From assembly GCA_017465745.1 (NCBI GenBank), contig JAFTVM010000100.1:1-42409 (forward strand): DNA of 42,409 bases, written 5' to 3'. The first letter of the stretch is position 1. Each line of letters starts with the position of its first letter. Under the pieces are notes generated by a model. The model had not been told where the DNA came from and did no database searches. It saw only the letters and a list, made by a program, of their open reading frames with translations. The position numbers and the translations under genes were made by a program. This DNA comes from Oscillospiraceae bacterium. Its GTDB lineage: Bacteria; Bacillota; Clostridia; Oscillospirales; Oscillospiraceae. Shown here piece after piece: positions 21,323 to 37,996 of the stretch.

Positions 21323-21666
21323 AAGACTCCGAGTTGAGAAAGTACCTGAGACAGAACAAGCCGACTAAAAAGACAGGTCAGCCCGGTTCATTCTACCTGC
21401 GCATGCTTTACTGTCCGAACCCTGTACTCAAAAGCATTCGCAAAGACATTGGGCTTGGTACTAATGACGAAGCGCATGCGCTGTTGCATGCACGTCTGCT
21501 GCTGCGTGCCTGTTGCGTGCTCGGTGCGAAGTTTACTGCAAAAATTAAAATAGTTCCGAAGCCGAAAGAGAAGAAGCTTCCTAAGCTTCCGACGCTCTGG
21601 GATTGGTATTATTCTCAGCTTCTACCCCCACGCGGCGAGGTTGAAAAAGACAAGCAACCCGAATAA
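21319..21666 (+). CDS. Basic protein at the early/late boundary, candidate late activator
   Basis: The 115-aa protein has a Lys/Arg-rich N-terminus (RKYLRQNKPTKKTGQPGS), a helical middle (DEAHALLHARLLLRACCVL) and a KIVPKPKEKKLPKLP linker. It is the last early gene and the first late promoter (21623) lies in its 3' end, the position of Q-type or other late regulators in lambda-like phages. No family is recognised. The activator role is positional inference; a DNA-binding motif is not clear. Confidence 0.45.
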   Translation: MKDSELRKYLRQNKPTKKTGQPGSFYLRMLYCPNPVLKSIRKDIGLGTNDEAHALLHARLLLRACCVLGAKFTAKIKIVPKPKEKKLPKLPTLWDWYYSQLLPPRGEVEKDKQPE

Positions 21667-21669
21667 ACT
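21623..21669 (+). promoter_or_regulatory. Late promoter A (MuF/terminase unit)
   Basis: An 18-nt element beginning TACCCCCACGCGGCGAGG (21623-21640), then -35 TTGAAA (21641-21646), a 17-bp spacer and -10 TAAACT (21664-21669). The ATG at 21676 is seven bases past the -10, so the mRNA is predicted leaderless. Same architecture as sites at 26235, 33920, 35925 and 37488. Confidence 0.85.
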
Positions 21670-21675
21670 ATAGTC

Positions 21676-22635
21676 ATGCCCAGCGCACAGCGCAGAGTAC
21701 GCGACCTGAAGCTCTCACCGTCGGCTCACACGACCGCCGGGTGGCAAGGCGTGTCGGCAGCTGTGCGCAATACCTCATTCTTCTCGGCTTGTGTGGAGGA
21801 TGAACGACTGCTAGGGGCTCTGCAGGAGTTTGTTGACCGAGCTGTCACCGAGGGCTGGAGTGTGACGGCATTCATAGACCGAGCTCTCACCATGTTGGAT
21901 GACATACGCCTAGAGCGTTACCCCGGCAGCGAGGGGCGCGAGCGAGGGCAGGAGTTTGACGACAGCTTCGACATTCTGTACGATATGAACCGGCTGCGTC
22001 TTATTTATCTGACGCAAAAGCAACTTGCCGCCGGGTTCCGTCAATTCGTGGACGACTTTGACCCGTACCAGCTGCAAGTCTACCCTGCATGGGAGTTTTA
22101 CCGACAAGCCGGTGCCAAAGAGCAAAACAAGCGGATAGACCATGTGAAGCATGAGGGGTTCATTCGGCTGAAAACTGACCTGCCATTCTGGCTTGCGCGC
22201 AACTCGCCTGACCAAGGCGGGTTCGGCAACCCATACGGCCCGTGGGGCTTCAACAGTTGGATGACGACCCTAAAAGTCGACCGAGAACGCGCTGAAGAGC
22301 TGGGGCTCATTAAACCGGGCGAGCGTCTGCAAATACCTGCTGAGTATGCCGAGTGGAACATTGGCAATGTCATTCGGAACATCGGTACGGCGTCCGTGAC
22401 TGACCTGCTCCCGAAGCAGCGTCAGAACGTGGTTGACCGCTGCGAGGAGGAGGGTATTACGGTGCAGGAAGAGGACGACACTCTCCATGTTGTGCCCGGT
22501 GAATCCCCGCAAGACCCGCTCAATGTTCTCGAGGAGGAAAACTTGGACGATTGGTTGCAGCGCGAGCAGGAAAGACTCGAACAAATGAGTGAGGAGGAAA
22601 TATTGAACGAAATACTTAACGGAGGCAACACGTAA
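21676..22635 (+). CDS. MuF-like minor head protein
   Basis: The 319-aa protein contains an RLRLIYLTQKQLAAGFRQF helix, followed by AWEFYRQAGAKEQNKRIDHVKHEGFIRLKTDLPFW and later GFNSWMTTLKVDRERAEELGLI. This order of R..H...G and a DxPFW element is that of the MuF/SPP1 gp7 minor head domain, which sits inside the capsid near the portal. The usual C-terminal Cys/Arg motif is not seen. Unusually it precedes terminase and is far from the portal gene. The C-terminal 60 residues are acidic. Predicted leaderless transcription from late promoter A. Confidence 0.7.
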   Translation: MPSAQRRVRDLKLSPSAHTTAGWQGVSAAVRNTSFFSACVEDERLLGALQEFVDRAVTEGWSVTAFIDRALTMLDDIRLERYPGSEGRERGQEFDDSFDILYDMNRLRLIYLTQKQLAAGFRQFVDDFDPYQLQVYPAWEFYRQAGAKEQNKRIDHVKHEGFIRLKTDLPFWLARNSPDQGGFGNPYGPWGFNSWMTTLKVDRERAEELGLIKPGERLQIPAEYAEWNIGNVIRNIGTASVTDLLPKQRQNVVDRCEEEGITVQEEDDTLHVVPGESPQDPLNVLEEENLDDWLQREQERLEQMSEEEILNEILNGGNT

Positions 22636-22638
22636 CAC

Positions 22639-23160
22639 ATGCCCAAGAAAACACCCAAGAGCAACTCTGAAAAGCGAGCCTTAACACCCGAACAGCGGGT
22701 GTTTTGTCGCTTGGTTGCCATTGAAAAATTGAAGCCTAGTCAGGCTTACCTGCAAGTATTTAAGTGCAAGCCGAATAGTGCTTCCACAATGGCAGGCGTT
22801 TTCTTGAAGAGGATTGAAATTCAAAATGAAATTCAACGGCTTCAATCCTCCATTCAATTGGTTCAGGAGAAAACACACATATGGACAAAGGCCGAGCGCA
22901 TGGAACGTCTGCAAGAATGGGCTCAGGAGAGCGCAGGGGCAGGCGACATTCCGACCGCTATCAAGTGCGTGGACACACTCAACAAGATGGATGGGGCCTA
23001 TGAGACGAAGGTCAGCACCGAGCAACAGTCAGTGCGAGAGCAGCGCGAAATGGCAGAGGAACGCGCCGATCGCATGAAACAGAACATACTTCAGGTAATC
23101 TATGAACAGCGAGAGCGAGCAGGTAGCTCGAGCCATCTCGATAGGGAACTTCGCGCATGA
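22639..23160 (+). CDS. terS: Terminase small subunit
   Basis: The 173-aa protein has an N-terminal HTH-like segment (LTPEQRVFCRLVAIEKLKPSQAYLQVF, then an ASTMAGVFLKR helix), as in Terminase_2-type small subunits that bind the packaging site, and a helical oligomerisation region. It directly precedes and overlaps the large subunit by 59 nt. Confidence 0.8.
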   Translation: MPKKTPKSNSEKRALTPEQRVFCRLVAIEKLKPSQAYLQVFKCKPNSASTMAGVFLKRIEIQNEIQRLQSSIQLVQEKTHIWTKAERMERLQEWAQESAGAGDIPTAIKCVDTLNKMDGAYETKVSTEQQSVREQREMAEERADRMKQNILQVIYEQRERAGSSSHLDRELRA

Positions 23161-24478
23161 TACGCTGAAGCTCGACCTTTACGATTGGCAGGAGCAGGCT
23201 CTTTTCGGTTCCGTGACCGGGAACCGCCGCATGGCGCTTGTCGCGGCTAATGGCTCGGGTAAGACCGCCTGCGTTAACGTAGTGCTCCTGCTCTGGTTCC
23301 TGCATGAGTACCCGAGGGGCATTGCTATGGTCACTTCCGGCTCTTGGAACCAGCTCAAAACGCAATTATGGCCGAACCTCGAGATGCACCGCGAGAAGTT
23401 CCCTGAGTGGAAGTGGGGAGCCGAGCAGATTACCACCCCGCAGGGTGGTTTCATACGCGCTTACTCTACCACCCAGCCGGGACGCACAGAAGGCCACCAC
23501 GAGCACCTGCCCGAACGCCCGGTGATGCTCATGGTGGACGAGGCCAAGAGCGTGCCGGAGCCTATTTACGAAGCCCTGAGCCGCTGCACGCCGACGTATT
23601 TTGTGCTCACCAGCTCCCCCGGTGCCCCGAGCGGGTCGTTTTATAACGCGTTCCACAAATCCCGCGCGCTGTACCACAGCGTTCGCGTGGACGCGTTCAT
23701 GTGCCCGCATATACCGAAATGGAAAATCGAGCTTGCGCAGCAGCTTTACGGGCCTGAACCCGAGCGGCATCCCATCTATCGCTCGATGATTATGGGGCTC
23801 TTTACCGAAGGCGACGATGCCATGCTCATACCTCGCTATCTGGTCGAGCGCGCTCTCATGCACAAGCCTGAGCCGCGCGCAGGCGACCGAAAGGCTGCTG
23901 TCGACTGGGCTGCAGGTGGCGACGAGACGGTACTTGCTGAGCGCAACGGCAACCAGCTGCGCATACTGTGGCGCGACCGAGAGCGCGACACGGTGAAGGC
24001 TGCACAGCGTGTGGTGCATGAGTGCAGGCAACGCGGCATTGAGGACGGCGATTGCATGGGCGACGTGTGCGGCTTGGGCAAGGGTATAATGGACGCTGCT
24101 AAGCATTACCAAGAGTTCTACTTCAAACCGTTCAACGGCGGCTCCCAGCCCGCCAACGAGAAAGACCGCCAGTACTATACTGATTTGAACGCGCAAGCAT
24201 GGATGTACTTCAGGCAGTCACTGGAGCGTGGCGAGGTATGCTTCCCGGACGGTCTGGACGAGACGACGGTTGACCAGCTCTGCAACCGCTATATGCAATG
24301 GGGGAGTCGTGGGCAGATTAAGTGCGAGCCTAAAAAAGAGATGAAAGAAGAGAGAGGCTTAGAGTCTCCCGACCGCGCAGACGCGCTCATCATGGCGTGG
24401 TGGGCGGGCAGGTTCATGACCTACGATGACGAGCGCACCGAAGTGCGCCCAGCAAAGAAAAATAAGTTTGTGATATGA
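23102..24478 (+). CDS. terL: Terminase large subunit
   Basis: The 458-aa protein has an ATPase domain with Walker A at residues 48-55 (AANGSGKT), Walker B at 141-147 (VMLMVDE) and a coupling motif YFVLTSSPG. The RNase H-like nuclease domain has acidic residues in AAVDWAAGGDE, GDVCG and SPDRADALIMAWW. It packages DNA into the prohead and cuts it. The packaging strategy cannot be read from the sequence; the circular assembly allows headful packaging but does not prove it. Confidence 0.93.
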   Translation: MNSESEQVARAISIGNFAHDTLKLDLYDWQEQALFGSVTGNRRMALVAANGSGKTACVNVVLLLWFLHEYPRGIAMVTSGSWNQLKTQLWPNLEMHREKFPEWKWGAEQITTPQGGFIRAYSTTQPGRTEGHHEHLPERPVMLMVDEAKSVPEPIYEALSRCTPTYFVLTSSPGAPSGSFYNAFHKSRALYHSVRVDAFMCPHIPKWKIELAQQLYGPEPERHPIYRSMIMGLFTEGDDAMLIPRYLVERALMHKPEPRAGDRKAAVDWAAGGDETVLAERNGNQLRILWRDRERDTVKAAQRVVHECRQRGIEDGDCMGDVCGLGKGIMDAAKHYQEFYFKPFNGGSQPANEKDRQYYTDLNAQAWMYFRQSLERGEVCFPDGLDETTVDQLCNRYMQWGSRGQIKCEPKKEMKEERGLESPDRADALIMAWWAGRFMTYDDERTEVRPAKKNKFVI

Positions 24479-26256
24479 ATATTACGCTAATTCAGGAGCA
24501 GTTGGCACACATCGAGCTCGCCCTCGAGACCGAGGACGAATTTGACGTGTATGGTGGCACGACCCGCGCACCGTTCGAGTTTCAGCCCACCGGGGTGGCC
24601 TCGTGGCGGGTCGTAGTGCGCGAGAGCGAGGTGGCCGGGGCGGCGATTCGCGCGTTCGACATTTACGCCCGACAGCGCAGCACTGGGCGCGAGTGGGTGG
24701 TGCTCAGCGGCAAGATTATCGTGAAGCCTCGCACCGCCGACATCGAGGGCGACAAGCTCTCCCCGGTCGAGTACCATGTGTCGGTGCCGGTGGTTGACAG
24801 CGTGGTTGATACGCAGGGAATGACCATCGTGACAGGCATTCCGGGCCCGCAGGGCCCGAAGGGGGACAAAGGCGAGCCCGGCGAGGGAGGAATGACGGAA
24901 GCCGAACGCGCCACGCTTGCAGGCGCAGCCCAGCGAGATGCTGACAACACGTTCACAGCAGCAAACACGTTCACGGGCGAGGTGGACATGAGCGGGGCGA
25001 GCGTGCAGCCGCCGAGCGGGTGGAATGTGGAGGGGGTGACGGCCGAAGCCATCCAAGCTGTCGCGCCGATAGCGTGGGACGAAACAAACGTACAGTTCGG
25101 GACAGGCTCAGTATTGAGCAAAACGGAATCTGTGGTCATAGGTGCTGGAGCAAAAGGCGAAGCGACAATGACCACCGCTCTCGGCCACGGTGCGAAAGTC
25201 TTTAAGGATTATTCAGTTGCAGTTGGGAAAAACGCAACCTGCAAAAACACAGCAACTATTTCAATTGGGTATAACAGCTCGACGGAGGGGCAGCGGTCAG
25301 TTGCACTGGGTTACGACACAGGCGCACGCGCGCAGTATGCTCTGGTTTTCGGCATTAGCGCAAAATCCGGCCTTAATGCCGTAAACAGCGTAACCATTGG
25401 ACAAACCTACTCAGACACGAACGGAGAGAACTCCTGCACCACCGAGGGAACAGGCTCAATCACCATCGGTGCGGGCGCTAACACCCTGAACAACGGCACG
25501 ACAGAGAGCAGCAACTCCGTGACCATTGGCTGCAAGGCTGAGAATAAGGGAGCGGATTCTGTAGTGATTGGGGCGCAGGCGAAGGGTATAAAGGGTTCCG
25601 TTGTTATGGGCACAAGCGCGACTGGAGCCGACAGCACCGTTTGTATAGGCTCGAAGTCCGAAGCAAAGGGGGCATCGTGCGTGTCGGTTGGCTTGCAGGC
25701 AAAAGCACATAGCGTGTATGGCGTAGCCTTCGGCTCATACGCAGAGGCACAAGGAGGCTGTGTGTCGGTTGTCTATAATACTAAAGCGAACAAAACTCAC
25801 AGCGTGTCATTAGGCTTGGAGGCAATAGCAGGACAGGAAAAGGCGGTGGCTCTCGGCTATAAAGCGTCTGTAAATGACTACGGCGCAACCGTCATCCGCT
25901 CAACCGCCTCAGACGGCACCTACACGCAGCTTTATTTCTCAGGCGCGAATACCCCGCTTGCGAACACCTACCATGACGGAGCGCCCATGCTGGCCTATGT
26001 CACCAAGGACAGCGCGGGAAATATCGTTGCTGCAGGCACGCGCTCGCTCATCGACCTGCTGACGGACAACAGCACATTCCAGCCCGCGTCTCTAGACGAG
26101 AACGGCGAATGGGTCATGCCCAAGGTATTCCACCCATCCGACCTCGACCTCCCGACCGAGGAGCCGAGCGAGCCAGAGGAGTATCAGCCTCTGCCAGTTT
26201 ATCCCATCGTGGAGCCGGAGGTGGACGAGCTTCGTACCCCCACGCAGGAGATTTGA
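24475..26256 (+). CDS. Fibre protein: collagen-like segment plus YadA-type head repeats
   Basis: The 593-aa protein has a globular N-terminal domain (about 1-115), a short collagen-like run (IPGPQGPKGDKGEPGEGG, about 121-138), then about twenty repeats of the YadA head type (V-x-I-G-x-x-A-x-A-x-G) from about residue 205 to 470, building a left-handed beta-roll trimer. The C-terminal part is a Pro/Glu-rich tail. Such trimeric heads bind host or mucosal surfaces. It follows terminase by an ATGA overlap. The stop codon lies within the -35 of late promoter B. Confidence 0.8.
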   Translation: MNITLIQEQLAHIELALETEDEFDVYGGTTRAPFEFQPTGVASWRVVVRESEVAGAAIRAFDIYARQRSTGREWVVLSGKIIVKPRTADIEGDKLSPVEYHVSVPVVDSVVDTQGMTIVTGIPGPQGPKGDKGEPGEGGMTEAERATLAGAAQRDADNTFTAANTFTGEVDMSGASVQPPSGWNVEGVTAEAIQAVAPIAWDETNVQFGTGSVLSKTESVVIGAGAKGEATMTTALGHGAKVFKDYSVAVGKNATCKNTATISIGYNSSTEGQRSVALGYDTGARAQYALVFGISAKSGLNAVNSVTIGQTYSDTNGENSCTTEGTGSITIGAGANTLNNGTTESSNSVTIGCKAENKGADSVVIGAQAKGIKGSVVMGTSATGADSTVCIGSKSEAKGASCVSVGLQAKAHSVYGVAFGSYAEAQGGCVSVVYNTKANKTHSVSLGLEAIAGQEKAVALGYKASVNDYGATVIRSTASDGTYTQLYFSGANTPLANTYHDGAPMLAYVTKDSAGNIVAAGTRSLIDLLTDNSTFQPASLDENGEWVMPKVFHPSDLDLPTEEPSEPEEYQPLPVYPIVEPEVDELRTPTQEI

Positions 26257-26281
26257 AAATTTAACCAACCGAACGCATAAT
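26235..26281 (+). promoter_or_regulatory. Late promoter B (lectin fibre, lysis, portal unit)
   Basis: Element TACCCCCACGCAGGAGAT (26235-26252), -35 TTGAAA (26253-26258), 17 bp, -10 CATAAT (26276-26281). The ATG at 26288 is seven bases past the -10, so a leaderless mRNA is predicted. Confidence 0.85.
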
Positions 26282-26287
26282 ACAGAC

Positions 26288-27961
26288 ATGAAGCAAATCG
26301 ACAGCATAGCAGGCAAATGCTACATTGCCACAGCTCCCAACGGCGGCACCGTAACCGACGAGGCCGGGCGCACTCTCGCCACCGTCGAGGCGGGCGAGCA
26401 GAAGGCCGTGTGGGGCACCGACGGCAAGCTCTACCTCTCCGACGACGACGGCAAGCTCGTGCTCGCAACTTTTAAGTCCCCCCTGCTCGCGCTTCGCCTG
26501 CTCGGGCAGGGGGAAAATGCGCTCCCTGCGGGGTATACGCGGGCAGAGTTCTTGGAGTCTACTGGGACGCAGCGCATATCTGTGGCGCGGTCTTTGACTG
26601 TCGCTGCCGATTGTCGTTTTACCGTTAAGGCTCAGAATACAGGGACAGGCTGGCAACACGCATTTGGTGCGCGTGTGGCTGCTAACTCAAAAGAGTTCGG
26701 TGTCACATACAATGTCGCCGGAGGCAGCGCACAAGTGGGGCTAGGCGGAAGTGTTGTCTCCATTCCGTGCGCGTTGACGGAAGTTCACGAAGTCTCTGCG
26801 GACGCGGCTAAAGGCACCGTGGTCTGCGGGGACGAGACTCGCTCAATAACCTCTGCGTCGAGCAGCATGTCCAGCATAGGAGTATTCCAGCGAGCTGGAG
26901 TATCAACCTCTTTCACCGGTCGAATTTTCAAGGCGAGTATATTTAACGAAGGTAAGCAATTTTTGCAGCTAGTACCAGCCCTCGACCCTAACGGCACGCC
27001 CTGCATGTACGACCGCGTGAGCAAGACGGCGTTTACGAACAGCGGCACTGGCCAGTTCATTGCGGGCATGACACTCTCTCAGGTTCGTGGGCTGCGCCTG
27101 CCTGCTGGCGGGGGCAAGTTGACACTTTCACTCCCGCACGAGGCGAGCATTGACAGACTCGCGCAGGCTGCGCTGGAGCGGGCTCGCGCGAATGGCTGGA
27201 CGCTGACGCTGCAATACGCCGAGGCGGATGTACCGGCTGGGTACAGGCGGTTGGATTTCTTGGAGAGCACAGGGACGCAGTATATTGACACGGGAGTCAA
27301 GCTGAGTAGTGAGAGCGAGGTGAGGTGTGGTGTAGCTTTCACCTCTATGGAGTCATTTAATTATGTTTTTGGTGGCATGGGGGAAGTGTGGTTGAATGAG
27401 GGTTTTTATGCTATTTGCGAGAATTTCCGACTTTCGGCAGGATTCGCCACTCAACAATCGTCAAGAAGATTCTCAGTGGTGCAGTATGCGTTATATAATA
27501 TAAAACTTGACAAAAACGATTATAACGTAAATGGGACTCAAATACATGCGTTTAACCCGGATAGTAGCGGTTTTACTGAACAGCCTGTAACATGTTCTAT
27601 TTTTTCGTTCAGGAGAGGCTCAGCATATAAAATAAATCCAAACATTTGTCGCATATATTCCTTCACCATCTCCCGCGCGGGCGTGGCTCAGGTGGACTAC
27701 GTGCCCTGCATAGCACCAGACGGCAAGCTCGGCATGTACAACAAAGTAGACGGCACACTCAAGGAGAACGCTGGCAGCGGCGCGTTTATTGCAGGCCTCG
27801 CCACCATCGACGACGTGCGCAAGCTTTGGCTGCCCGAGACAAACGGCGAGCTGACCGTTTCCGTGCCCTCCGACACTCCCGACAGCGCGGTGGAGCAACT
27901 GCGCAAGAACAACCCAACTTGGCAAATCGCAATACAATATCGAACCGACAATGAAAATTAA
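26288..27961 (+). CDS. Tandem lectin-type (concanavalin-like) fibre protein
   Basis: The 557-aa protein has an N-terminal beta region (about 1-75) and two homologous modules of about 235 residues. Each starts with a GYxRxxFLESTGTQ signature (about 79 and 317), contains an LxGF-type lectin beta-sandwich, then a GSGAFIAG or GTGQFIAG signature and a small LTVSVP-type domain. This is the LamG/concanavalin-A-like fold often used by gut phages for glycan binding. The second module's DNA (about 27310-27660) is markedly AT-rich, suggesting a swapped receptor domain. Confidence 0.75.
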   Translation: MKQIDSIAGKCYIATAPNGGTVTDEAGRTLATVEAGEQKAVWGTDGKLYLSDDDGKLVLATFKSPLLALRLLGQGENALPAGYTRAEFLESTGTQRISVARSLTVAADCRFTVKAQNTGTGWQHAFGARVAANSKEFGVTYNVAGGSAQVGLGGSVVSIPCALTEVHEVSADAAKGTVVCGDETRSITSASSSMSSIGVFQRAGVSTSFTGRIFKASIFNEGKQFLQLVPALDPNGTPCMYDRVSKTAFTNSGTGQFIAGMTLSQVRGLRLPAGGGKLTLSLPHEASIDRLAQAALERARANGWTLTLQYAEADVPAGYRRLDFLESTGTQYIDTGVKLSSESEVRCGVAFTSMESFNYVFGGMGEVWLNEGFYAICENFRLSAGFATQQSSRRFSVVQYALYNIKLDKNDYNVNGTQIHAFNPDSSGFTEQPVTCSIFSFRRGSAYKINPNICRIYSFTISRAGVAQVDYVPCIAPDGKLGMYNKVDGTLKENAGSGAFIAGLATIDDVRKLWLPETNGELTVSVPSDTPDSAVEQLRKNNPTWQIAIQYRTDNEN

Positions 27962-28184
27962 CATGAAATGGGTGCGCCGTACACCCTCAGAATACGGCAA
28001 TTACGTAGACGTCTACGGCACGCGCTACACGGTGGAGTGGTGCCACAAGCTTCTGACTCCTGACGGCTCGACCGAGGCTGAGCATGGCTATGAACAGCAC
28101 GCTAGCGTGGAGGAAGCCTGCGAGTCGTGGGGGCTGGTGCCGTATGTCGACCCGAACGCAGAAGAACTTTCAACCATTGAATAA
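27951..28184 (+). CDS. Hypothetical protein, 77 aa
   Basis: Starts at 27951 inside the lectin gene (or at 27963). It is a small acidic protein with an N-terminal basic strand, YVDVYGTRYTVEW and an SVEEACESWG helix. No family is recognised. Late operon. Confidence 0.5.
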   Translation: MKINMKWVRRTPSEYGNYVDVYGTRYTVEWCHKLLTPDGSTEAEHGYEQHASVEEACESWGLVPYVDPNAEELSTIE

Positions 28185-28186
28185 CT

Positions 28187-28459
28187 ATGGACAAGACGCA
28201 AATCAAACAGACGGTGCATGGCTTTGCCACGCAGGCTGCAAGCAAGGCAAATGAGAACGCCAAGTCCGCTACAGGCTGGAAGAAATGGCTCTGGGCTGCT
28301 GGAGCTATCATCGCTGGTGCTGTGGCGTGGTTCACCCAGAGCTGCACCAACGTAACCCCTCAGCAGGTGCATGCTGCGCATGTGCTGTACCATGCCATCA
28401 GCGGCGAGCCTTGCACCATTGCTAAGCCTTCCCCGGTGGTGGTGCCCACCGTAAAATAA
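28187..28459 (+). CDS. Single-pass membrane protein, lysis-region candidate
   Basis: The 90-aa protein has an amphipathic N-terminal helix (about 1-28), a transmembrane helix at about 32-48 (WLWAAGAIIAGAVAWF) and a Cys at about 52 (TQSC), which is not a canonical lipobox. The C-terminus is Pro/Val-rich. Its place before an amidase gene suits a holin or spanin-type role, but the topology is only suggestive. Confidence 0.5.
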   Translation: MDKTQIKQTVHGFATQAASKANENAKSATGWKKWLWAAGAIIAGAVAWFTQSCTNVTPQQVHAAHVLYHAISGEPCTIAKPSPVVVPTVK

Positions 28460-28498
28460 CGCACACCCCTAACTACCAAACAAACCACAAAACAAACT

Positions 28499-28735
28499 AT
28501 GAATGGATTCGCTAGTAACGCAATGTCGGCGCTCGGCAACCGCTTTCGCGGAGAACTTGAGCAGACCTCAGGCATGAGCCTCGAACAAGTACAGCAAGCC
28601 GTGCAAAACGGCGATGAAAAAGGCCTGTGCTGGCTGCAAAAGAAAGTCGAGCAGATACGCAAAGAGAACCCGCGTCTGTACTCAACCATTGAGGGCATGG
28701 CGCGTGGTCGTAACCCCTTCCCGGGCTCACGGTGA
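28499..28735 (+). CDS. Hypothetical helical protein, 78 aa
   Basis: Starts after a long G-poor leader (28460-28498) with no Shine-Dalgarno. Helical, with LEQVQQAVQNGDEKGLCWLQKKVEQIRKENPRLYSTIEGM. No signal or membrane segment. The stop lies in a small palindrome GCTCAC-G-GTGAGC. Function unknown. Confidence 0.5.
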   Translation: MNGFASNAMSALGNRFRGELEQTSGMSLEQVQQAVQNGDEKGLCWLQKKVEQIRKENPRLYSTIEGMARGRNPFPGSR

Positions 28736-28780
28736 GCTTGGAAAGACAAACACAACTAAACTAGAAAGGACTCAAATAAA

Positions 28781-30253: not shown

Positions 30254-30259
30254 TCCACC

Positions 30260-30598: not shown

Positions 30599-31121
30599 CA
30601 TCGGCCATGCGAACGGAACCGGCGCGCGTGGGAACGGATTTGAAGAGCACGAGCAGTGCAAGAAGCTTGCTGTCGAGCTGAAAAAGGCTCTGGAGGCGTT
30701 TAAGCTGTGCCCCATTCAGGCCGACATCATAGACTTCCCGGAAATGAGCAACGGCGGCGACCTCGCTGCAACGGTGAGGGCCGTCAATGCGGGCAACTAT
30801 GCGGCCTGCATCAGCTTGCACATGGACGCCAGCGATTCACCCAAGGCTAAGGGAGCGCACGTCTGCTACTACTCAGAGCGAGGCAAGGAGCTCGCCAAGG
30901 AAATCGCGCTCAGACTCTGCCCGCAGCTGCCCGGTCGCGCTAATACGACGGTGAAACGCACTGACCTTTATGTGCTGAAGAACACCCGCCCGGTGGCCGT
31001 GCTTGTGGAATGCGGGTTCATTACCAACCCCAACGACGCGGAATGGGTAGACAAGAACCCTGACCGCGTGGCTCTCAGTATAGCTCTCGGAATCGCTTCT
31101 TTCTTTGACTATGAAAATTGA
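30579..31121 (+). CDS. N-acetylmuramoyl-L-alanine amidase (endolysin, Amidase_3 type)
   Basis: The 180-aa protein has an Amidase_3 zinc site: AIDIGH near the start (His10), an E in the GFEEHEQ region and a SLHMDAS His near residue 78, plus a catalytic Glu in VAVLVECGFITN. The length matches a single-domain phage endolysin with no cell-wall-binding module. It cleaves the amide bond of peptidoglycan stem peptides at lysis. The start is at 30579 (CCATGAAACG). It overlaps the portal gene by 11 nt. Confidence 0.9.
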   Translation: MKRVAIDIGHANGTGARGNGFEEHEQCKKLAVELKKALEAFKLCPIQADIIDFPEMSNGGDLAATVRAVNAGNYAACISLHMDASDSPKAKGAHVCYYSERGKELAKEIALRLCPQLPGRANTTVKRTDLYVLKNTRPVAVLVECGFITNPNDAEWVDKNPDRVALSIALGIASFFDYEN

Positions 31122-33606
31122 CGCTCTCCAAAAATACCAGAATCAGCTTTTAAGCGCGTTTAACGCCGAGCAGCTGCAATACCTCAAATACGACAACTGG
31201 ACAGGGCTGCTCACGGAAACAGACCGGCTCTACGCAACGATGTTCCATGACTGGGACGTGCTGCAAAAGGACTCTTCCGACCTTGCGGAGGCCGTGCAAA
31301 GCCTTGAGTGGACCGTCGCGCCATACGTGGCCGACGGCAAAGAGGCTGACGCTAAGGCTCAGGAGGTAGCCAAAACTGTGACAGACGCTCTCTGGAAGCG
31401 CAGTAGCAAGCTCCCCGGCACCTACTCGCACACGTTCCCCCAGTTGCTTAATGCTCTTGTTCATGCCCTGTTCCGAGGCTTCAACGTGCACGAAATTGAG
31501 TGGGTGAATGATGGCGAACTTGTCTACCCTGCTGCATTCCACCAGTTGCCCCCGCAGTTCATGCGCTGGGAAGACCGGGCCGGTGAGCTGGACAGGCTGC
31601 TTTTCGTTGCAGATGGAGAGACGGCGAAGCCGAAGCCGTTCCCAGCCAACAAGTATATTGTCGCACTCAATACCAGCGGCCCTGATCACCCGCTTTACAA
31701 TGCCATGTACTACTCGCTCATTGCGTGGTATGGGGCATACAAGTTCGGGCTTGGTTGGTTCATGGAGTACTGCCAGAAGTACGGCATGCCCAAGCTCGTG
31801 TTCCATTATGAGTCTGACCGCGACAGACAGCAGCTCGAAGCCGAACTTGCCGAGGAGCGTGTGCTCAATAACATTCTGCTGAAGGGCGATCGCGCGGTTG
31901 ATATCGCCAACGCTCCCGCTAGCGGTGCAAGCCTTCCGCAGCGCGAGCTACTGAATCTCGCCGAGTCGCAGTGCCACAAGTTGATTCTTGGCCAGACGCT
32001 CACGTCCGACACAAGCGAGCACGGAGGCTCGCTTGCGCAGGCCCGTGTTCATGCCGGTGTGCAAGCCGAGGTGGTTAAGAAGCGCGCGGCATTCGTTGCC
32101 GACGTGCTCAACACGCAGCTCATACCGGCTATCGTGCTTCTCAATTACGGCACTATGGACGTGCCTATGCCCGAGCTCGTGTTTAAGCTCCCGCAGGAGG
32201 GCGTGACATTGGAACGCGTGCAGGTGCTTAAGACTGCGCTCGAAATTAAGGGCATGCGCATTAAAAAGAGCGAGGCTTACGAGTTCATGGGCTTCGCGCA
32301 GCCTGCTGAGGGAGATGACGTGTTTGAAGCCGCAAGCGAGACTCCCCAGCAAGGCGGGTTTGGTGCTATGTTCGGCCAGCAGCCGCCCCCCGGTGGTAAA
32401 GCCCCGCAGAAGGAGCAACAGAAGCCCGACAGTGGCGACAAAGCGCAGACCGGCCAGAAGACGGAGCAGGGCGACAACGACGAGCCGGTGCAAGCTGCCA
32501 AGGCTCCCGCCGACCCCGCGCAGGAGTGGCTCGCGCCCATCAAGCAGAAGTTCCTCGAAGCTCGCAAAGCGGGGGCCAGCATGGCCGACCTGAAGAAGAT
32601 GCTGCTCACCATGCACCCGGACACGAAAGCCCTTGCGAAGGCGTTTGCTAACAACATTCTTGCAGGGTTTGCGGGGGAGAGTGAGGAGGTAGACGCGGCC
32701 AACCCCTACGGATGCAATCAGCATGGCGAGGGGTGGCGTATGCCCCATAATGGGCGAGCTAGCAAGCCGGGAGCACCCGTTAAGAAGACAGACCCCACCG
32801 AGGAGGAACGCAAGCAGAAGGAGGAAGAAGAACGTCAGCGTCAGAAGGAGCAGGAGCGCAAGGCTCGTGAGGAAGAGGAAAAGAAAGCTAAGGTGAAACA
32901 CCCCATCGGGCAAGCAACAACGAGAGAAGAAGCTATTCGAGAGACGAAAAGCTTAATTGATGGCAAAGGACGCGTTAAATGGAGCGAAGATATTTCTATT
33001 GAGCAAATTAATGAGTTTAATGAGACTATCTCTGCTATGAAGGAAAAATTCCCTTTAGACACAGATATAGTTAAATTAGGTTCGTATATAAGTGAAGACG
33101 ATGACGAAGGGGCTCATTGCGAAGCGTGGAGTAAACCAAACACAGATGATATAGTCCTTCATTTGGAACTGAATCAAGACCACGAATATGGTGGCGTTCA
33201 CGACTTTTATAGTTGGAAACCCTATGAACGTTGGGAAATTAAACAGTCGGGAGGCTATAAAAGAATGAATGTGGGCGCTTCTAAGTCAGGTATTAGCATT
33301 AGAGCTGTAATGCTTCATGAGTATGGTCATGCTCTTCATTCTAGAGCACATATAGCTGTTGACCACTCTGATAAAATAAATGCGAGCTGGATAAAAGATA
33401 ACGTAGACGTTGGCAATAAATGGAAAGAAGTTTATGCTACTGCTGTAAATAACGGAGACATTGTAAAAATCAGCGAATATGCAGCAGGCAACGATTCCGA
33501 ATTCTTTGCTGAGTGTTTTGCTGCTCGTGAATTGGGAGAAAAATTGCCTGATTATATAAACACTGCTCTTGACAATGTAATAAATCTTGCTATAAAAAAG
33601 CCATGA
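31111..33606 (+). CDS. Portal protein (DUF935/Mu gp29 type) fused to a zinc metallopeptidase domain
   Basis: The 831-aa protein has an N-terminal portal domain of the Mu gp29/DUF935 kind (about 1-420: QSLEWTVAP, ALFRGFNVHEIEW, ALNTSGPDHPLYN, GWFMEYCQKYGMPKLVF, LILGQTLTSDTSE). A Pro/Gln linker follows, then the NPYGCNQHGEGW motif at about 530 and a Glu/Lys-rich helix. The C-terminal domain (about 600-831) carries HEYGH (736-740) and SEFFAECFA (Glu797, Glu801), a gluzincin-type signature like the lethal-factor-type zincins in polymorphic toxins. The DNA from about 32920 is visibly more AT-rich, showing the module was joined later. The next gene overlaps by ATGA and is a likely inhibitor. Confidence 0.85.
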   Translation: MKIDALQKYQNQLLSAFNAEQLQYLKYDNWTGLLTETDRLYATMFHDWDVLQKDSSDLAEAVQSLEWTVAPYVADGKEADAKAQEVAKTVTDALWKRSSKLPGTYSHTFPQLLNALVHALFRGFNVHEIEWVNDGELVYPAAFHQLPPQFMRWEDRAGELDRLLFVADGETAKPKPFPANKYIVALNTSGPDHPLYNAMYYSLIAWYGAYKFGLGWFMEYCQKYGMPKLVFHYESDRDRQQLEAELAEERVLNNILLKGDRAVDIANAPASGASLPQRELLNLAESQCHKLILGQTLTSDTSEHGGSLAQARVHAGVQAEVVKKRAAFVADVLNTQLIPAIVLLNYGTMDVPMPELVFKLPQEGVTLERVQVLKTALEIKGMRIKKSEAYEFMGFAQPAEGDDVFEAASETPQQGGFGAMFGQQPPPGGKAPQKEQQKPDSGDKAQTGQKTEQGDNDEPVQAAKAPADPAQEWLAPIKQKFLEARKAGASMADLKKMLLTMHPDTKALAKAFANNILAGFAGESEEVDAANPYGCNQHGEGWRMPHNGRASKPGAPVKKTDPTEEERKQKEEEERQRQKEQERKAREEEEKKAKVKHPIGQATTREEAIRETKSLIDGKGRVKWSEDISIEQINEFNETISAMKEKFPLDTDIVKLGSYISEDDDEGAHCEAWSKPNTDDIVLHLELNQDHEYGGVHDFYSWKPYERWEIKQSGGYKRMNVGASKSGISIRAVMLHEYGHALHSRAHIAVDHSDKINASWIKDNVDVGNKWKEVYATAVNNGDIVKISEYAAGNDSEFFAECFAARELGEKLPDYINTALDNVINLAIKKP

Positions 33607-33869
33607 AAGATGAAGTTTTAGTAAAAAAAGTAAAAGCTATAGAAAATGACGAGGCGTCTGTCCGTTCTTTACTCTTAGAATTACTGAATTCTGGTGCTGT
33701 TTCAACTGAGCAAGTTATAAAAGTACTGGACAAACCTAGTAACGATTTTCCGAAAGGCTTGACTTTCAATAAAGACCCGAATTTCATTACAGAGAGTCCA
33801 TCTTTCATAATGAGAGTCATTACTAAATACAAACGAATGAACGGAAATAAAAAAGCCTTCTGCTGCTAA
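33603..33869 (+). CDS. Candidate immunity protein to the portal-fused metallopeptidase
   Basis: The 88-aa protein overlaps the effector domain's stop by ATGA. It is acidic in its first half (KAIENDEASVRSLLLELL) and AT-rich like the metallopeptidase module, so the two appear to have been inserted together. No family is recognised. Small overlapping downstream genes with no other role are the usual immunity partners of polymorphic toxins. A terminator follows directly. Confidence 0.5.
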   Translation: MKDEVLVKKVKAIENDEASVRSLLLELLNSGAVSTEQVIKVLDKPSNDFPKGLTFNKDPNFITESPSFIMRVITKYKRMNGNKKAFCC

Positions 33870-33884
33870 ACCTAGCCCCCCTTC

Positions 33885-33910
33885 GCCCCGCCCTTCGGCG
33901 GGGCTTTTTT
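33885..33910 (+). terminator. Terminator of the lysis/portal unit
   Basis: GCCCCGCC / GGCGGGGC stem (33885-33892, 33897-33904), loop CTTC, followed by TTTTTT. It closes the unit started by late promoter B, just before late promoter C. Confidence 0.9.
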
Positions 33911-33919
33911 GCGACTTTC

Positions 33920-33966
33920 TACCCCCAAGCGGGAGACTTCAAATCTCCTGCGTGGGGCGGTAAAAT
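33920..33966 (+). promoter_or_regulatory. Late promoter C, with an inverted second element
   Basis: Element TACCCCCAAGCGGGAGAC (33920-33937), -35 TTCAAA (33938-33943), 17 bp, -10 TAAAAT (33961-33966). In the spacer, on the minus strand, lies a second element (TACCGCCCCACGCAGGAGAT) that matches promoter B at 20 consecutive bases, so C is nearly palindromic. It could give weak divergent transcription, or place two activators head to head. Confidence 0.75.
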
Positions 33967-34046
33967 GGAGGTGTTCGAAAGAAACACTCCATGCCTTGCG
34001 GCATAGCAAGCCGCCCGCATGTACAAAACACTTTAGACGTACATGC
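33967..34046 (+). promoter_or_regulatory. Structured leader sequestering a start codon
   Basis: Downstream of promoter C are three hairpins in series: GGAGGTGTTC/GAAACACTCC (33967-33990), a perfect ATGCC/GGCAT with TTGC loop (33991-34004), and a perfect 8-bp GCATGTAC/GTACATGC (34017-34046) in which the ATG of the next gene (34043) lies inside the right arm. The stem would hide that start until opened. A short GTG-started peptide frame (33971-34006) is also possible. Confidence 0.6.
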
Positions 34047-34486
34047 AACAATCATTCATTAGTAGTGCCTACACCCGCCTGTCAGGGCTGGGTGTGGCAA
34101 GTCAGGCTTTAAGCGAAGAGCAGCGGAAGCTCATTGCTCGGAACAAGGAGAAAGCAGAGCAAGCTCGGCAGCGATACGCTGAGCGGGCTAAGCAGGCTCG
34201 CCAAAAGGCGATGGCTGAGAAGTGCTATAAAGAACAACTTGTGCGAGCTCGGAAAAGTGCCGAGCGTATGAAAGCTGACCGAGAGTTCCATGCTGCGAGA
34301 TTCGCGGACAAGATGTGGTGCTACAATGTGCCGAATACGCGCTTGGGAAGGTGGCTGCTGAAAGTATACCATCCGCTGGCTACGCGGTCAGGCATGCTTA
34401 TTTGGCGCGAGCTGTGGTGCGGTAGGCACTACAATCGGGCATATTATGCTGAGTTGGAGCTGAACCACAAAAACGCTTGGGCATGA
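34043..34486 (+). CDS. Basic coiled-coil protein, 147 aa, unknown
   Basis: First gene of the cassette after promoter C. Residues about 25-75 are a strongly basic helical run (KEKAEQARQRYAERAKQARQ); the C-terminus is Trp/Arg-rich (YHPLATRSGMLIWRELWCGRHY). The start codon is inside a hairpin. No family is recognised. It overlaps the next gene by ATGA. Confidence 0.5.
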   Translation: MQQSFISSAYTRLSGLGVASQALSEEQRKLIARNKEKAEQARQRYAERAKQARQKAMAEKCYKEQLVRARKSAERMKADREFHAARFADKMWCYNVPNTRLGRWLLKVYHPLATRSGMLIWRELWCGRHYNRAYYAELELNHKNAWA

Positions 34487-35445
34487 TGACGGAAGAGGAA
34501 ATTGAGGCTCTGAAGAAAAAGAGCAAGACGGCGTACCGTCAAATCTGGATGAGCAGCCGAGAGCTGGTTTTGGAGTTCAAAGCAAGAAACCCGGAGAAGT
34601 CGTCGAAATACGCCACGACGACATGGCTGAGAACCACAGGCAAAGGGGTGACTCGGTTATTGCCTGAGCCGTTGCCGCCTGAGCTGAAAAAGAAGCAAAA
34701 GTATCACCGACAACAGGTGCTGGAGCTATTGAAGAATCCTCCCCCGGTGAGAGCGGAGCTGCAGGAGTGGCAGAGACGCACTTCGGAAGCGGACGCAAGC
34801 GGCGAGTGGGTGCCGTTGAGCGGTGTGCAAGACAGACTGTTGGGGTGCAATGAGAAGTTTGCAAACATAGCCAGAGTGAGCGGTTTTTTGAGCAGTGTAC
34901 AAAAGGGCAGGAACATTCGTCGACTGTACGATCGCGAGAAAGAGGAAGTGCCACCGTCGGCATTGTGCTTACAGCGTTACTATTTGCCTGATGTGTTGAA
35001 ATTAGCTGAGGCATACCAGACACGGGTACAGGAATCGCGGTTTATCATTGTTGATGAACCTCCCGAGCACACATGGCTGAGCTTCCCGACTATTTGCAGA
35101 TTGACCGGGTGCCCAAGACAGAGACTCGTTGACCTTGCGACGCGTGGGCACATTCAGACCGTGCTGATTCGCGAGAAGTTTGAAGCTGTGCGAGGAACGA
35201 AGACCCGTTTGACGTGCTACGCTGACTTCGCTGCGGTGCGTGAGGTGCTTTGTTGGCGGAGTCACAGCTATGTTGCGCGAGTCATGGGCAGAGACTGGTT
35301 GAAAAAGAGGCTGGAATGGCAGGAGAAGTACGGACTTGTGTCACCGTTCGACCATGTGGCAGAAACCTACTCTGCTGCGGGGTACAGTGTTTATTGCCCC
35401 GAACTTATTAACGAAACAGCATCATACACCAAGCATGTGCATTGA
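34483..35445 (+). CDS. Multi-HTH DNA-binding-like protein, 320 aa
   Basis: The start is the first ATG at 34483. Two MerR/Xis-like segments are visible: about 115-165 (WVPLSGVQDRLLGCNEKFANIARVSGF) and about 200-245 (SFPTICRLTGCPRQRLVDLATRG, then a wing of TKTRLTCYADF), with a similar N-terminal helical part (about 17-60). It therefore looks like a protein with repeated winged helices that could bind several DNA sites, perhaps the late-promoter element. No known family is matched. Confidence 0.45.
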   Translation: MMTEEEIEALKKKSKTAYRQIWMSSRELVLEFKARNPEKSSKYATTTWLRTTGKGVTRLLPEPLPPELKKKQKYHRQQVLELLKNPPPVRAELQEWQRRTSEADASGEWVPLSGVQDRLLGCNEKFANIARVSGFLSSVQKGRNIRRLYDREKEEVPPSALCLQRYYLPDVLKLAEAYQTRVQESRFIIVDEPPEHTWLSFPTICRLTGCPRQRLVDLATRGHIQTVLIREKFEAVRGTKTRLTCYADFAAVREVLCWRSHSYVARVMGRDWLKKRLEWQEKYGLVSPFDHVAETYSAAGYSVYCPELINETASYTKHVH

Positions 35446-35968
35446 ACTTATTTCTTCGCGCAAATGGGGCGAGCCGCCGCTCAAAAAGCCCAAAGAGCTA
35501 AAGGGTGAGAAGCAGGCAGGAACCGTACCTTTCGGGAGCAAGTGCAAGTGCCCGGTATATGTGACAAAGACGCACATATACCTCAAGCACCGCGATTGGT
35601 TTTCGCCTTGCATTTCTTGCCAGAAGGCAAAAGACGCCGGCATTATTGACAAATGGGACACGCGTTTTATATACAACGACCGTTTCGGCGGAGTTGTTCT
35701 ACGCAGCGAAGCGTGGCTTCGCTTCCCTTTGCTCATGATAACCGGATGGAAGGGCCTGTTGCCCGCCTATGGGCTTTGTATAGAGTTTGAGAAGTTTCTC
35801 GGGCTGGAAGAGGGGACGTTGTGTCATTTTGACTGGGTGAATATGTTTGAGGAGCTTATAAAGCTCTGCAAGCCGTATTTGCCGAGGAAGCCGAAAATAG
35901 GCGTTATAACTTCGCTGCTGGATTTACCCCCACGCGGGAGTATTGAGAATGCGCTTGCGCGCGAGTAG
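35435..35968 (+). CDS. Zinc-ribbon-like protein, 177 aa, unknown
   Basis: The start is at 35435 (overlap with the previous gene); an upstream in-frame start would only add shadow sequence. Cys pattern CKC...C-x2-C (CKCPVYVTKTHIYLKH..., then CISCQKAK) suggests a small metal site. A helical part (about 75-160) follows. The C-terminus PPRGSIENALARE is the translation of late promoter D, so the end of the protein is set by the promoter. Function unknown. Confidence 0.5.
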   Translation: MCIELISSRKWGEPPLKKPKELKGEKQAGTVPFGSKCKCPVYVTKTHIYLKHRDWFSPCISCQKAKDAGIIDKWDTRFIYNDRFGGVVLRSEAWLRFPLLMITGWKGLLPAYGLCIEFEKFLGLEEGTLCHFDWVNMFEELIKLCKPYLPRKPKIGVITSLLDLPPRGSIENALARE

Positions 35969-35971
35969 AAT
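35925..35971 (+). promoter_or_regulatory. Late promoter D (323-aa gene)
   Basis: Element TACCCCCACGCGGGAGTA (35925-35942), -35 TTGAGA (35943-35948), 17 bp, -10 TAGAAT (35966-35971). The ATG at 35978 is seven bases past the -10, again predicting a leaderless mRNA. It lies within the 3' end of the preceding gene. Confidence 0.85.
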
Positions 35972-35977
35972 GGTGCT

Positions 35978-36949
35978 ATGTACGAAGAACTGAACATTTC
36001 AGAGTTGGAAGGCGTGTGGGCAGCGTACCTTGCCATCTGCGACCTGAAGGAAGAAACGGAACGCTTGCAGGCTGCTTGTGCGGCCAAGACGGCAGAGCTT
36101 GCCGAACTGCGAGAGCAGACCGCTGAGCTATTCGCCGAGCGAGTGGCTGCAGAGGGCGCAGACGATGACGCGGTGCATGCTGCTATGGCTATGTGGCAGC
36201 ACGACCCCGAGAGCGCCGCGCGTGCTGTGCTGGGGTGTGATATTGCTGAGGCTGCTAACCCGTATGGCTGTAATCAATACGGCCACGAGTGGCGAGGCAA
36301 GCATGGCGAGGGGTGGAAGCCCAGCGGGAGAGGGGGTAAAGAGAAGCCGGGGGAGAAGTCAGATTCAAGCGAGACTTTAACAAAAGAGATGCGAAGAAAG
36401 CACGAAGAATACGAGAAAGCGCAAGAAGCTTACAGGCAGGCGAGAAAGAAAGTTTTTGACTTGGATGACGAAATAGAGAATGCAATAAAAAACGGAGATT
36501 CGGAAAAAGCAGACCAACTCGAAAAAGAACAAGAAGAGGCGAGGCGCATGTGGAGGGAAGCAAGTTCCAACGCAGACAGAGTGACTAAAGAATATAGAGA
36601 GTTGTCGAAGCGTTATCGCGCGGCAAGCAACAAAGGAGAAAAAACTGTGGAAGAGGAAGCTGACGAATATGAAAACAGCTCAGAAAAAGAACGTGGCTTG
36701 AAGCTGTTTATTTGGAAGCGTGATTTGCAGCAAGCTAAAGACAAAGCTTTAGACATTAGAGAGTCTACGAAATATCGACAGAGAGACCCTGAGACTGTGA
36801 AGCAATACGAAGAGGCAAAGAAAGAAGCGAATGAGAGAGCGAAAAGACTTCGCGCAACCCTCAAAGCAATAGGAGAGCGTCGTGGCTGGGACAAAAAAAA
36901 GATTGACTACATGCTTCGTCGCTACCCGGAAACTGTGATTGATTTTTAA
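35978..36949 (+). CDS. Coiled-coil protein sharing the NPYGCNQ junction motif, 323 aa
   Basis: The N-terminus is a helical domain (about 1-88). Near residue 93 it has NPYGCNQYGHEW and then a second GEGW motif, closely matching the portal-metallopeptidase junction (NPYGCNQHGEGW). A long Glu/Lys/Arg coiled coil follows (about 125-310). The C-terminal half is AT-rich, as in the metallopeptidase module. It is likely a second virion-linked cargo protein built on the same junction; its C-terminus might be another effector or a regulatory partner. Function unknown. Confidence 0.55.
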   Translation: MYEELNISELEGVWAAYLAICDLKEETERLQAACAAKTAELAELREQTAELFAERVAAEGADDDAVHAAMAMWQHDPESAARAVLGCDIAEAANPYGCNQYGHEWRGKHGEGWKPSGRGGKEKPGEKSDSSETLTKEMRRKHEEYEKAQEAYRQARKKVFDLDDEIENAIKNGDSEKADQLEKEQEEARRMWREASSNADRVTKEYRELSKRYRAASNKGEKTVEEEADEYENSSEKERGLKLFIWKRDLQQAKDKALDIRESTKYRQRDPETVKQYEEAKKEANERAKRLRATLKAIGERRGWDKKKIDYMLRRYPETVIDF

Positions 36950-36961
36950 CACTTTTATACC

Positions 36962-37996
36962 ATGCTCAGCATCAAATTATCAGAAAACGCGGGGCGCGCG
37001 CCGGAGGCCGTGCCGTTCATGCCCGCAGGGCAGCACAGTATTTGTGCCACAGTCAATGGCAAGCCCGGCCGACGCTTGGTGACGGTCGACCGCGAGGCGT
37101 GCGACAGGTTGCAAGCTGACCTCTCGGAGCACCTGAGAGCGTCTGCAGCGGGTGAGAAGGCACGCCCCATGCTTATGTTCGACCACACGGCAGGCAATGC
37201 CGCTGCAAAGCCGCTGGGCTTCGAGTGGGACGACGAGCGAGGCATTCTGCTGCGCGTGGAGTGGACGAAAGCAGGGCGCGAAGCGGTGGAGGGCGGCAAC
37301 TATGGCTACGTGTCGCCTGCTTTCAGGCTCGCCAAGGGCACCGGGGAGATTCTTGGCCTTGCGGGTGGTGTGGAGGTCGGATCGCTTGTCAATGACCCTG
37401 CGTTTGAGCGCAATGAATGCATAGCCGCTGCGCGTGCGGACGAACCAGAAGATGTGCAGGTGGACTATGTGGAGACTGCAATGAGCGTACCCCCACGCGA
37501 AGAGGTTGAAAATATCGCGCGTGAGGGCGATAATACAAATGTCGCCAAGGAAGGCGGCGCAAACAACCAAAAGCAAAACATGGAAGAGATTAAGAAAATG
37601 CTGGGTCTGCCCGCCGAAGCTGACGACGCTGCAGTCTTGTCTGCCATTCGTTCCCTGAAGGCTCAGGGTGCCGAGGCTAAGACGAAGACTGAGGAGGTCG
37701 CCGCCGAGTGCGAGAAGCACAAGAAGGCTCTGGCCGACCACAAGGAGAAGTCTGCGGACGCTTTCATTAAGCGACTGCAGAAGGACGGCACCATTGCCCC
37801 GAAGGACGAGGAGCGCGCCAAGGCCGCTCGTACACTGTTCATGGCCGACCCCGAGCAGGCAGAGACTCTGTTCTGTGGGCTGCGTGCAGCTCATTCTGAG
37901 GTTGTGGGTGACGAGGTTCGCGCTAACCGCGTGACCGAATCCACTGCAAATGACTATTCCAACAAGAGCCTCGAGGAACTTTTGAACGAAAACTAA
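36962..37996 (+). CDS. Mu gpI-like head maturation protease with scaffold C-terminus
   Basis: The 344-aa protein matches Mu protein I/gp32: residues 1-160 contain PMLMFDHTAGNAAAKPLGFEWDD and GREAVEGGNYGYVSPAF, the conserved Mu I protease region, followed by VGSLVNDPAF. Residues about 185-205 are a linker, and the rest is a Lys/Glu-rich coiled-coil scaffold. As in Mu, a nested in-frame start (37580) makes the scaffold part separately, here with its own late promoter at 37488. Confidence 0.88.
   Translation: MLSIKLSENAGRAPEAVPFMPAGQHSICATVNGKPGRRLVTVDREACDRLQADLSEHLRASAAGEKARPMLMFDHTAGNAAAKPLGFEWDDERGILLRVEWTKAGREAVEGGNYGYVSPAFRLAKGTGEILGLAGGVEVGSLVNDPAFERNECIAAARADEPEDVQVDYVETAMSVPPREEVENIAREGDNTNVAKEGGANNQKQNMEEIKKMLGLPAEADDAAVLSAIRSLKAQGAEAKTKTEEVAAECEKHKKALADHKEKSADAFIKRLQKDGTIAPKDEERAKAARTLFMADPEQAETLFCGLRAAHSEVVGDEVRANRVTESTANDYSNKSLEELLNEN
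37488..37534 (+). promoter_or_regulatory. Late promoter E inside the protease gene (scaffold/capsid unit)
   Basis: Element TACCCCCACGCGAAGAGG (37488-37505), -35 TTGAAA (37506-37511), 17 bp, -10 GATAAT (37529-37534). The predicted start is near 37541, with a 40-nt leader before the nested scaffold ATG at 37580. This would give extra scaffold and capsid messages beyond those reading through the protease. Confidence 0.8.
37580..37996 (+). CDS. Nested scaffold protein (138 aa), in-frame with the protease
   Basis: In-frame internal ATG at codon 207 of the protease gene, preceded by GCAAAACATG and a leader with GGAAGG. The product is the coiled-coil scaffold alone (MEEIKKMLGL, then TKTEEVAAECEKHKKALADHKEK), the equivalent of Mu gpZ. 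Promoter E directly upstream supports independent expression. Confidence 0.7.
   Translation: MEEIKKMLGLPAEADDAAVLSAIRSLKAQGAEAKTKTEEVAAECEKHKKALADHKEKSADAFIKRLQKDGTIAPKDEERAKAARTLFMADPEQAETLFCGLRAAHSEVVGDEVRANRVTESTANDYSNKSLEELLNEN

Follow-up and report, generated by a model that had tools for sequence, protein, structure and literature searches.

The window analysed here is the whole of a 42,409-nucleotide stretch, contig JAFTVM010000100.1 of the Oscillospiraceae bacterium assembly GCA_017465745.1. It most probably represents a phage genome of about 42.3 kb, and it carries five promoter-like sites that share a short element at a fixed distance upstream of the -35 box. Judging from the sequence, we consider it rather probable that all five act as sigma-70-type late promoters belonging to a single regulon, and that the element is an operator read by the protein encoded at 21319-21666, acting as an activator. 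What carries this reading is the shared geometry, its recurrence at matching places in related phages, operators that are specific to each phage and have diverged in concert, and a constant neighbour gene. The sites and the candidate gene are as follows.

21319..21666, + strand: candidate late activator gene; 115 amino acids, basic (24 K+R, 11 D+E); its 3' end holds the start of promoter 1
21623..21669, + strand: predicted late promoter 1; element TACCCCCACGCGGCGAGG, TTGAAA, 17 bp, TAAACT; ATG of the MuF-like gene at the predicted +1 (21676)
26235..26281, + strand: predicted late promoter 2; element TACCCCCACGCAGGAGAT, TTGAAA, 17 bp, CATAAT; ATG at the predicted +1 (26288)
33920..33966, + strand: predicted late promoter 3; element TACCCCCAAGCGGGAGAC, TTCAAA, 17 bp, TAAAAT; intergenic, upstream of an accessory cassette
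35925..35971, + strand: predicted late promoter 4; element TACCCCCACGCGGGAGTA, TTGAGA, 17 bp, TAGAAT; ATG at the predicted +1 (35978)
37488..37534, + strand: predicted late promoter 5; element TACCCCCACGCGAAGAGG, TTGAAA, 17 bp, GATAAT; within the protease-scaffold gene

The arrangement proposed in the preliminary description (18 nt, then two hexamers 17 bp apart, at 21623, 26235, 33920, 35925 and 37488) is exact. With both strands searched, TACCCCCA occurs in five exact copies, all on the + strand and all at the five sites, where each opens an 18-nt block that abuts a -35 box; the -10 box comes 17 bp further on, within the 16-18 bp expected of sigma-70-type promoters, at all five. The 17-nt spacers are unlike each other, and agreement is limited to the element and the boxes. 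The 18-nt element had been described as a unit, but only its first ~12 nt are conserved, the last 6 nt being variable, that is, a gap. Copies had also been said to lie inside coding genes: those at 21623, 26235 and 35925 do begin in the 3' ends of genes, but 37488 falls centrally within the protease-scaffold gene (36962-37996), and the copy at 33920 lies between genes. The predicted +1 positions of promoters 3 and 5, near 33973 and 37541, are without a start codon.

A position matrix made from the five sites themselves (one base short at the -10 end) scores them at 34.9-37.6, with 20.0 as the best score in 100 simulated sequences; the score is circular because the matrix was built from its own sites. 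The next-best place in the window, at 19.4, is a partial inverted copy within the 33920 site. The earlier statement that the geometry is beyond chance is borne out by a search blind to the element, in which T-type -35 boxes followed by 17 bp and a -10 box were compared pairwise over 10 nt starting 18 nt upstream. The 53 candidates on the + strand yielded 10 pairs agreeing at 8/10 or better, all among the five sites, and 20 simulated sequences yielded a mean of 0.35 pairs and a maximum of 1. A sigma-70 consensus scan of 21000-38100 gave 16 sites, including all five (mean of shuffles, 7.6), and a pattern scan of the viral collection gave one match, a single site in contig L007.

Three further interpretations of the sites were tried and set aside. 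The 35925 element looks like an 18-nt dyad, but the right half is not kept at the other four sites or in relatives, and a one-sided site is therefore likelier than a palindrome. A second, inverted copy in the spacer is seen at 33920 and at single sites of two relatives (G035 and G044); over 34 sites, 171 letters match, compared with 165.8 (standard deviation 5.3) after shuffling. A regulon of the host was sought across the assembly with TACCCCCANGCRG, which is present at four of the five sites and at two places on other contigs, where by eye there is no promoter layout.

Ten related phages share the geometry at matching late-gene places, namely at the MuF gene, after the terminase, and before and inside the protease-scaffold gene, with operator letters that differ by phage (TGCCCCCACG, TCTCCCCGCG, TAGAGCCAA, TAGCCCGTTTTG and TAGCCCATTTTG among others). 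The circular IMG/VR phage G002, with a 123-bp end repeat, has a terminase 74% and a head protein 51-52% identical to those of the window, and its operator is TGCCCCCACG, once TGCCCCCACA. Sites precede the MuF-like gene and the homologue of the window's 557-amino-acid gene, and lie ahead of (38063, minus strand) and inside the protease gene; the site at 5070 (minus) is the counterpart of promoter 2, with the next gene matching residues 1-53 of the protein encoded from 26288, and that at 22991 (plus) stands ahead of a gene showing a short match with the 323-amino-acid protein of the window (35978). In G035 and the IMG contigs L076-L079 the operator is xTCCCCCAxGC or TGCCCCCTTCC; as far as each contig extends, it is found ahead of the MuF-like gene and, at the protease gene, both upstream and internally. 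The more distant G061 has TAGCCCGTTTTG at the protease gene, both upstream of it and within it, and ahead of a gene that by eye is tape-measure-like; its site before the MuF-like gene reads TAACCCGTTTTG and has a poor -10 (TTACTG). G010 and G015:C2, also more distant, have TAGCCCATTTTG or TAGCCCAATTTG, found four times in G010 and twice in G015:C2, where the stretch is shorter; the MuF-like and in-protease placements in G010 follow the likeness of open reading frames (ORFs), by eye for the protease. IMG contig L113 encodes a neighbour protein of 82% identity and keeps this operator twice. The remaining relatives have TACCCCC at four sites (G044), TCTCCCCGCG at three sites and one (G068 and G072), TAGAGCCAA twice (G060), TATCCCCATTTC once (the fragment G001) and a single site (G006). 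The late regulon with an activator site beside a sigma-70-type promoter, as the preliminary description had it, is backed by these relatives as the best reading, the site spanning -53 to about -42.

Sites inside the protease gene are found in G002, G035 and G061, and by eye in G010. In this gene the element DNA is the phage's own operator and the encoded peptide differs between phages (by eye), and selection therefore seems to act on the DNA. Two side observations concern relatives. Shortly ahead of the G002 protease gene (L014, 37532, minus strand), TGCCCCCACGCGAGGCTATTGCGTGGGGGCTTTTTT forms a terminator-like hairpin whose arms are two inverted operator copies, and the region 2549-14700 of G068 (L040) has seven blocks that resemble one another, built around GGACTGCGAAAATAACGC and a promoter-like sequence; they seem to be copies of one gene module.

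The divergence of the operators is concerted. Among 31 sites of eight phages, with slot names assigned by us and those of G010 and G061 partly by eye, sites from one phage show 0.88 identity in their first 12 letters (49 pairs) and same-slot sites from different phages 0.54 (78 pairs), and none of 10,000 permutations of letters among phages within slots reaches the observed difference. Such divergence appears to be the mark that a trans-acting partner would leave. When the core words were searched first, 30 of 37 matches in nine phages or contigs had the -35/-10 layout (loose boxes, 17-18 bp spacing) at the fixed distance, a layout present at 0.8-2.2% of sampled positions: 5/5 in the window, 5/9 in G002, 4/6 in G061, 4/4 in G010, 2/2 in G060, 3/3 in G068, 1/1 in G072, 4/5 in G044 and 2/2 in L113 (G035, G001 and G006 were left out). 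These counts are descriptive, because the cores were picked after the sites were seen.

An ATG, GTG or TTG lies 52-56 nt past the element start in 24 of the 30 layout-bearing sites (about one in four per site expected, by our estimate), and three of the five window late genes have AUG at the predicted +1. As start codons are usually at the predicted +1 or at most 2 nt behind it, we infer that several late mRNAs are leaderless. A Shine-Dalgarno-like word is present at 7 of 44 window gene starts, as picked by us. In A. muciniphila, 10% of the transcription starts mapped by Cappable-seq are leaderless, according to excerpts of PMC4782308.

The preliminary description left the activator unnamed and proposed comparing the adjacent gene across relatives. 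That comparison singles out one family: a homolog of the 115-amino-acid protein, basic and of ~100 amino acids, has its gene immediately ahead of the first late gene in 9/9 element-bearing phages with the spot covered, and in eight of those nine the first late promoter begins inside this neighbour gene. Also in favour, the neighbour gene was not found at a lenient threshold in the terminase relatives G015:C3 and IMG loci L080-L086, and CCCC-type patterns among these element-less relatives are single stray matches in L048 and L085; within L080-L086 other operators were sought in L082 alone, and a number of the loci may be duplicates of a single phage. On this evidence the 21319-21666 product is a strong candidate for the missing activator. 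Comparison of the family with Pfam, PHROGs and NCBIfam gave nothing of weight, and the candidate has no sequence match in the PDB at E up to 10; with the window protein as query, tblastn gave no match in the phage collection. An AF2 model predicts a beta-beta-beta-alpha fold, which may resemble that of integrase arm-binding domains.

Activator-like genes also occur unannotated in the Akkermansia phages Chambord (L104, 17623-17910) and Chantilly (L097, 3423-3713). The annotated start of the Chambord 'head morphogenesis' gene (17801) lies inside the activator-like gene, and 17897 is the more likely start. A longer chromosomal paralogue, an ORF of ~190-220 amino acids, is present in 12 Akkermansia loci (L060, L062, L064, L066-L070 and L072-L075); the five that were translated look alike.

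Several observations weigh against the regulon and its candidate activator. The neighbour gene is present in Chambord, Chantilly, G008 and G011, yet no shared late element was found there; gene and element are therefore not strictly coupled. Other operators were sought in the element-less relatives L082, Chambord, Chantilly, G011 and G008 only, and the Chambord upstream regions showed scattered likeness only (part of that record is N, and there was no shuffle control). The integrase-arm-type fold match of the candidate is weak and its profile comparison with integrases non-significant, so that arm-domain homology is not established. On the - strand the blind search gave two pairs elsewhere (simulated mean 0.45, maximum 1), and in G068 it gave 16 pairs, mostly in repeated gene modules. 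Core matches without the promoter layout make up 4/9 in G002, 2/6 in G061 and 1/5 in G044, one of the G061 failures being the site before the MuF-like gene with its poor -10. Among the 34 collected sites the spacer is 18 rather than 17 in seven, and their box frequencies are biased because some were found by -35/-10 patterns. The evidence from G006, G001 and G072 is one site each, and the sample covers few lineages from one bacterial genus.

The presence of the neighbour gene without a detected element in Chambord-type phages lends some support to the view that the operator and promoters are as described but that the neighbour gene has a different role, the operator being bound by another phage protein, such as a small early helix-turn-helix type, or by a factor of the host. 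The early region does encode further small proteins that might bind DNA, judging from their features (e.g. 8059-8265). A tblastn comparison found no other early-region window gene in all element-bearing phages, a weak test with just 488 bp (G044) and ~1.2 kb (G068) of contig upstream of the neighbour gene, and a host factor would hardly account for operators that are uniform within each phage but vary among the phages of a single genus; we regard this alternative as unlikely. That the element is instead the operator of a repressor, lysogenic or late-off, seems to us quite improbable. In its favour, position alone does not tell whether the effect is positive or negative, and the -35 boxes are recognisable; against this, the neighbour gene is at the early-late boundary, a usual place of late activators. 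The element also lies upstream of -35, where the Mu activator C binds as well (excerpts of PMC4461284). We give very little credence to the blocks being mobile or recombination cassettes copied between modules and alike through recent descent. They do stand at module borders and before the accessory cassette (33920), but agreement is confined to element and boxes, with the 17-nt spacers all unlike, and in relatives the corresponding positions hold blocks of a different sequence.

As a kind, late regulons in which a single small activator serves several operators are already known from P2 and Mu, and the operator, activator family and leaderless layout described here appear to match none of the systems compared. 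P2 has four late promoters with the consensus TGT-N12-ACA (excerpts of PMC3931495). As is proposed for the window, P2 and 186 (Ogr/Delta/B) combine several late promoters in a temperate phage with a common upstream operator and a small phage-made activator, but their zinc motif CX2CX22CX4C (C4) is absent, as read by eye, from the window protein and its phage homologs, and the window operator is one-sided and C-rich rather than a TGT-N12-ACA dyad (by eye), with start codons at +1. In Mu, one activator (C, of the Mor/C family) serves four late promoters by binding upstream of -35 (excerpts of PMC4461284), an arrangement like that proposed for the window. No Mor/C Pfam match (E up to 1) was found in the window protein and seven homologs or in 16 aligned members, and the Mu operator differs from the window's. 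The Mu protease-scaffold gene has an internal scaffold start, as we propose for the window. T4 late promoters, which depend on gp55, gp33 and the clamp gp45, are without an upstream or -35 element (excerpts of PMC2988020) and are activated by the sliding clamp (PMC7892883, PMC2988020); the window sites differ in having host-type boxes and an operator. The motif LPL[FW], at the C-terminus of 5/10 family members (shuffled mean 0.04) and written with different codons, resembles the clamp motif QL[S/D]LF (excerpts of PMC12309361). The shuffle test is weak because the motif was noticed after the fact, and the window's own protein is without it, so that the clamp connection is a lead only. As regards the arm-type/AP2-like domains of tyrosine integrases, the window protein stands alone, without an integrase core, and the homology is non-significant. 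Searches of one limited literature collection found no paper on Akkermansia, phage and 'late promoter', and none on Verrucomicrobia, prophage and 'late promoter'.

The genes behind and around the predicted promoters are listed here.

19711-20514: replication-initiation type protein; among the early genes
20504-21322: IstB-type ATPase; among the early genes
21676..22635, + strand: MuF-like minor head protein, encoded first after promoter 1; phrog_220, E 5e-4; named MuF in the preliminary description
22639-23160, + strand: terminase small subunit; PHROG match
23102-24478, + strand: terminase large subunit; PHROG match (phrog_51 and phrog_2 cover the subunit pair, 22639..24478)
24475..26256, + strand: fibre-like protein with YadA head repeats; PF05658, E 5e-14; promoter 2 begins in its 3' end
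26288..27961, + strand: 557-amino-acid gene behind promoter 2; no Pfam match of weight
30543-31121, + strand: lysis amidase; Amidase_3, E 1e-26
31105-33606, + strand: portal; phrog_113, E 2e-56
33885..33904, + strand: terminator-like hairpin ahead of promoter 3; one of 23 such sites in 21000-38100 (mean of shuffles, 19.7)
34043..35968, + strand: accessory cassette of three ORFs (147, 322 and 210 amino acids) without family; no PHROG and no convincing Pfam match
35978..36949, + strand: 323-amino-acid gene behind promoter 4; no PHROG; short partial match in G002
36962..37996, + strand: protease-scaffold gene; phrog_328, E 1.5e-21; aligned with G002
38004..39065, + strand: major head protein; phrog_212, E 2e-23

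A late gene group had been placed behind each site, but the 'lectin fibre' label behind 26235 is unsupported by Pfam. Likewise, the site at 37488 precedes the scaffold part of its own gene as had been said, but the head protein gene comes later. The scaffold likely starts internally at ATG 37580, ~39 nt past the predicted start of promoter 5. Elsewhere in the window, a 247-amino-acid gene among the tail genes (4609-5352), 56% identical in G002, is glycosyltransferase-like by eye.

In the model that we envisage, the ~12-nt operator of each promoter spans -53 to -42 and is separated by 6 nt from a weak -35 box, with the -10 box 17 bp beyond. After induction, the early and replication genes would end with the activator gene at 21319-21666, whose product would bind the operator beside the weak -35 and recruit host RNA polymerase to five late starts. 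These would serve packaging and head genes; fibre, lysis and portal genes; the accessory cassette, whose start sits behind its own terminator-like hairpin; the gene before the protease; and the scaffold part of the protease gene. Internal starts give extra scaffold in other phages, and promoter 5 with ATG 37580 may do the same here. Because the first operator lies inside the end of the activator's own gene, the pair would be tied together and would diverge jointly from phage to phage. A bolder version appears distinctly unlikely when all of its parts are taken together: that a small integrase-arm-like (AP2-like) domain, freed from its recombinase, became the late activator of an Akkermansia phage lineage, with a one-sided operator beside -35, immunity-like shifts in specificity, leaderless late mRNAs and a tie to the clamp through LPL[FW] (QLPLF once).

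A 141-bp repeat at the window ends (1-141 and 42269-42409) indicates a closed circular contig. The assembly comprises 122 contigs with a stated contamination of 7.08, and its remaining contigs, which we take to be Firmicute, have six Spo0A matches, five above the cut-off. The window terminase is 67-68% identical to one in an Akkermansia metagenome-assembled genome and has matches in 13 of 76 Akkermansia genomes; among 146 phage records, Akkermansia phages take the top three places (37-39%), the others among the matches listed being below 28%. No near DNA match to 20000-38000 was found in the phage collection, no head-protein relative in the viral_contigs collection by the same method, and no Rfam match in the window. 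Because the nearest named relatives come from Akkermansia, we infer that the host is the gut bacterium Akkermansia or a near relative and that the contig was wrongly binned into a Spo0A-bearing assembly.

PMC10197239 names Chambord and Chantilly as prophages of A. muciniphila in a defined mouse consortium, and since they carry the gene family, genetics in cultured strains may be possible. If the proposed regulon is real, it would provide a concrete late-gene switch for Akkermansia phages, with a candidate regulator and exact predicted transcription starts, and the diverging operator-activator pairs at fixed geometry would constitute a natural experiment in DNA-binding specificity.

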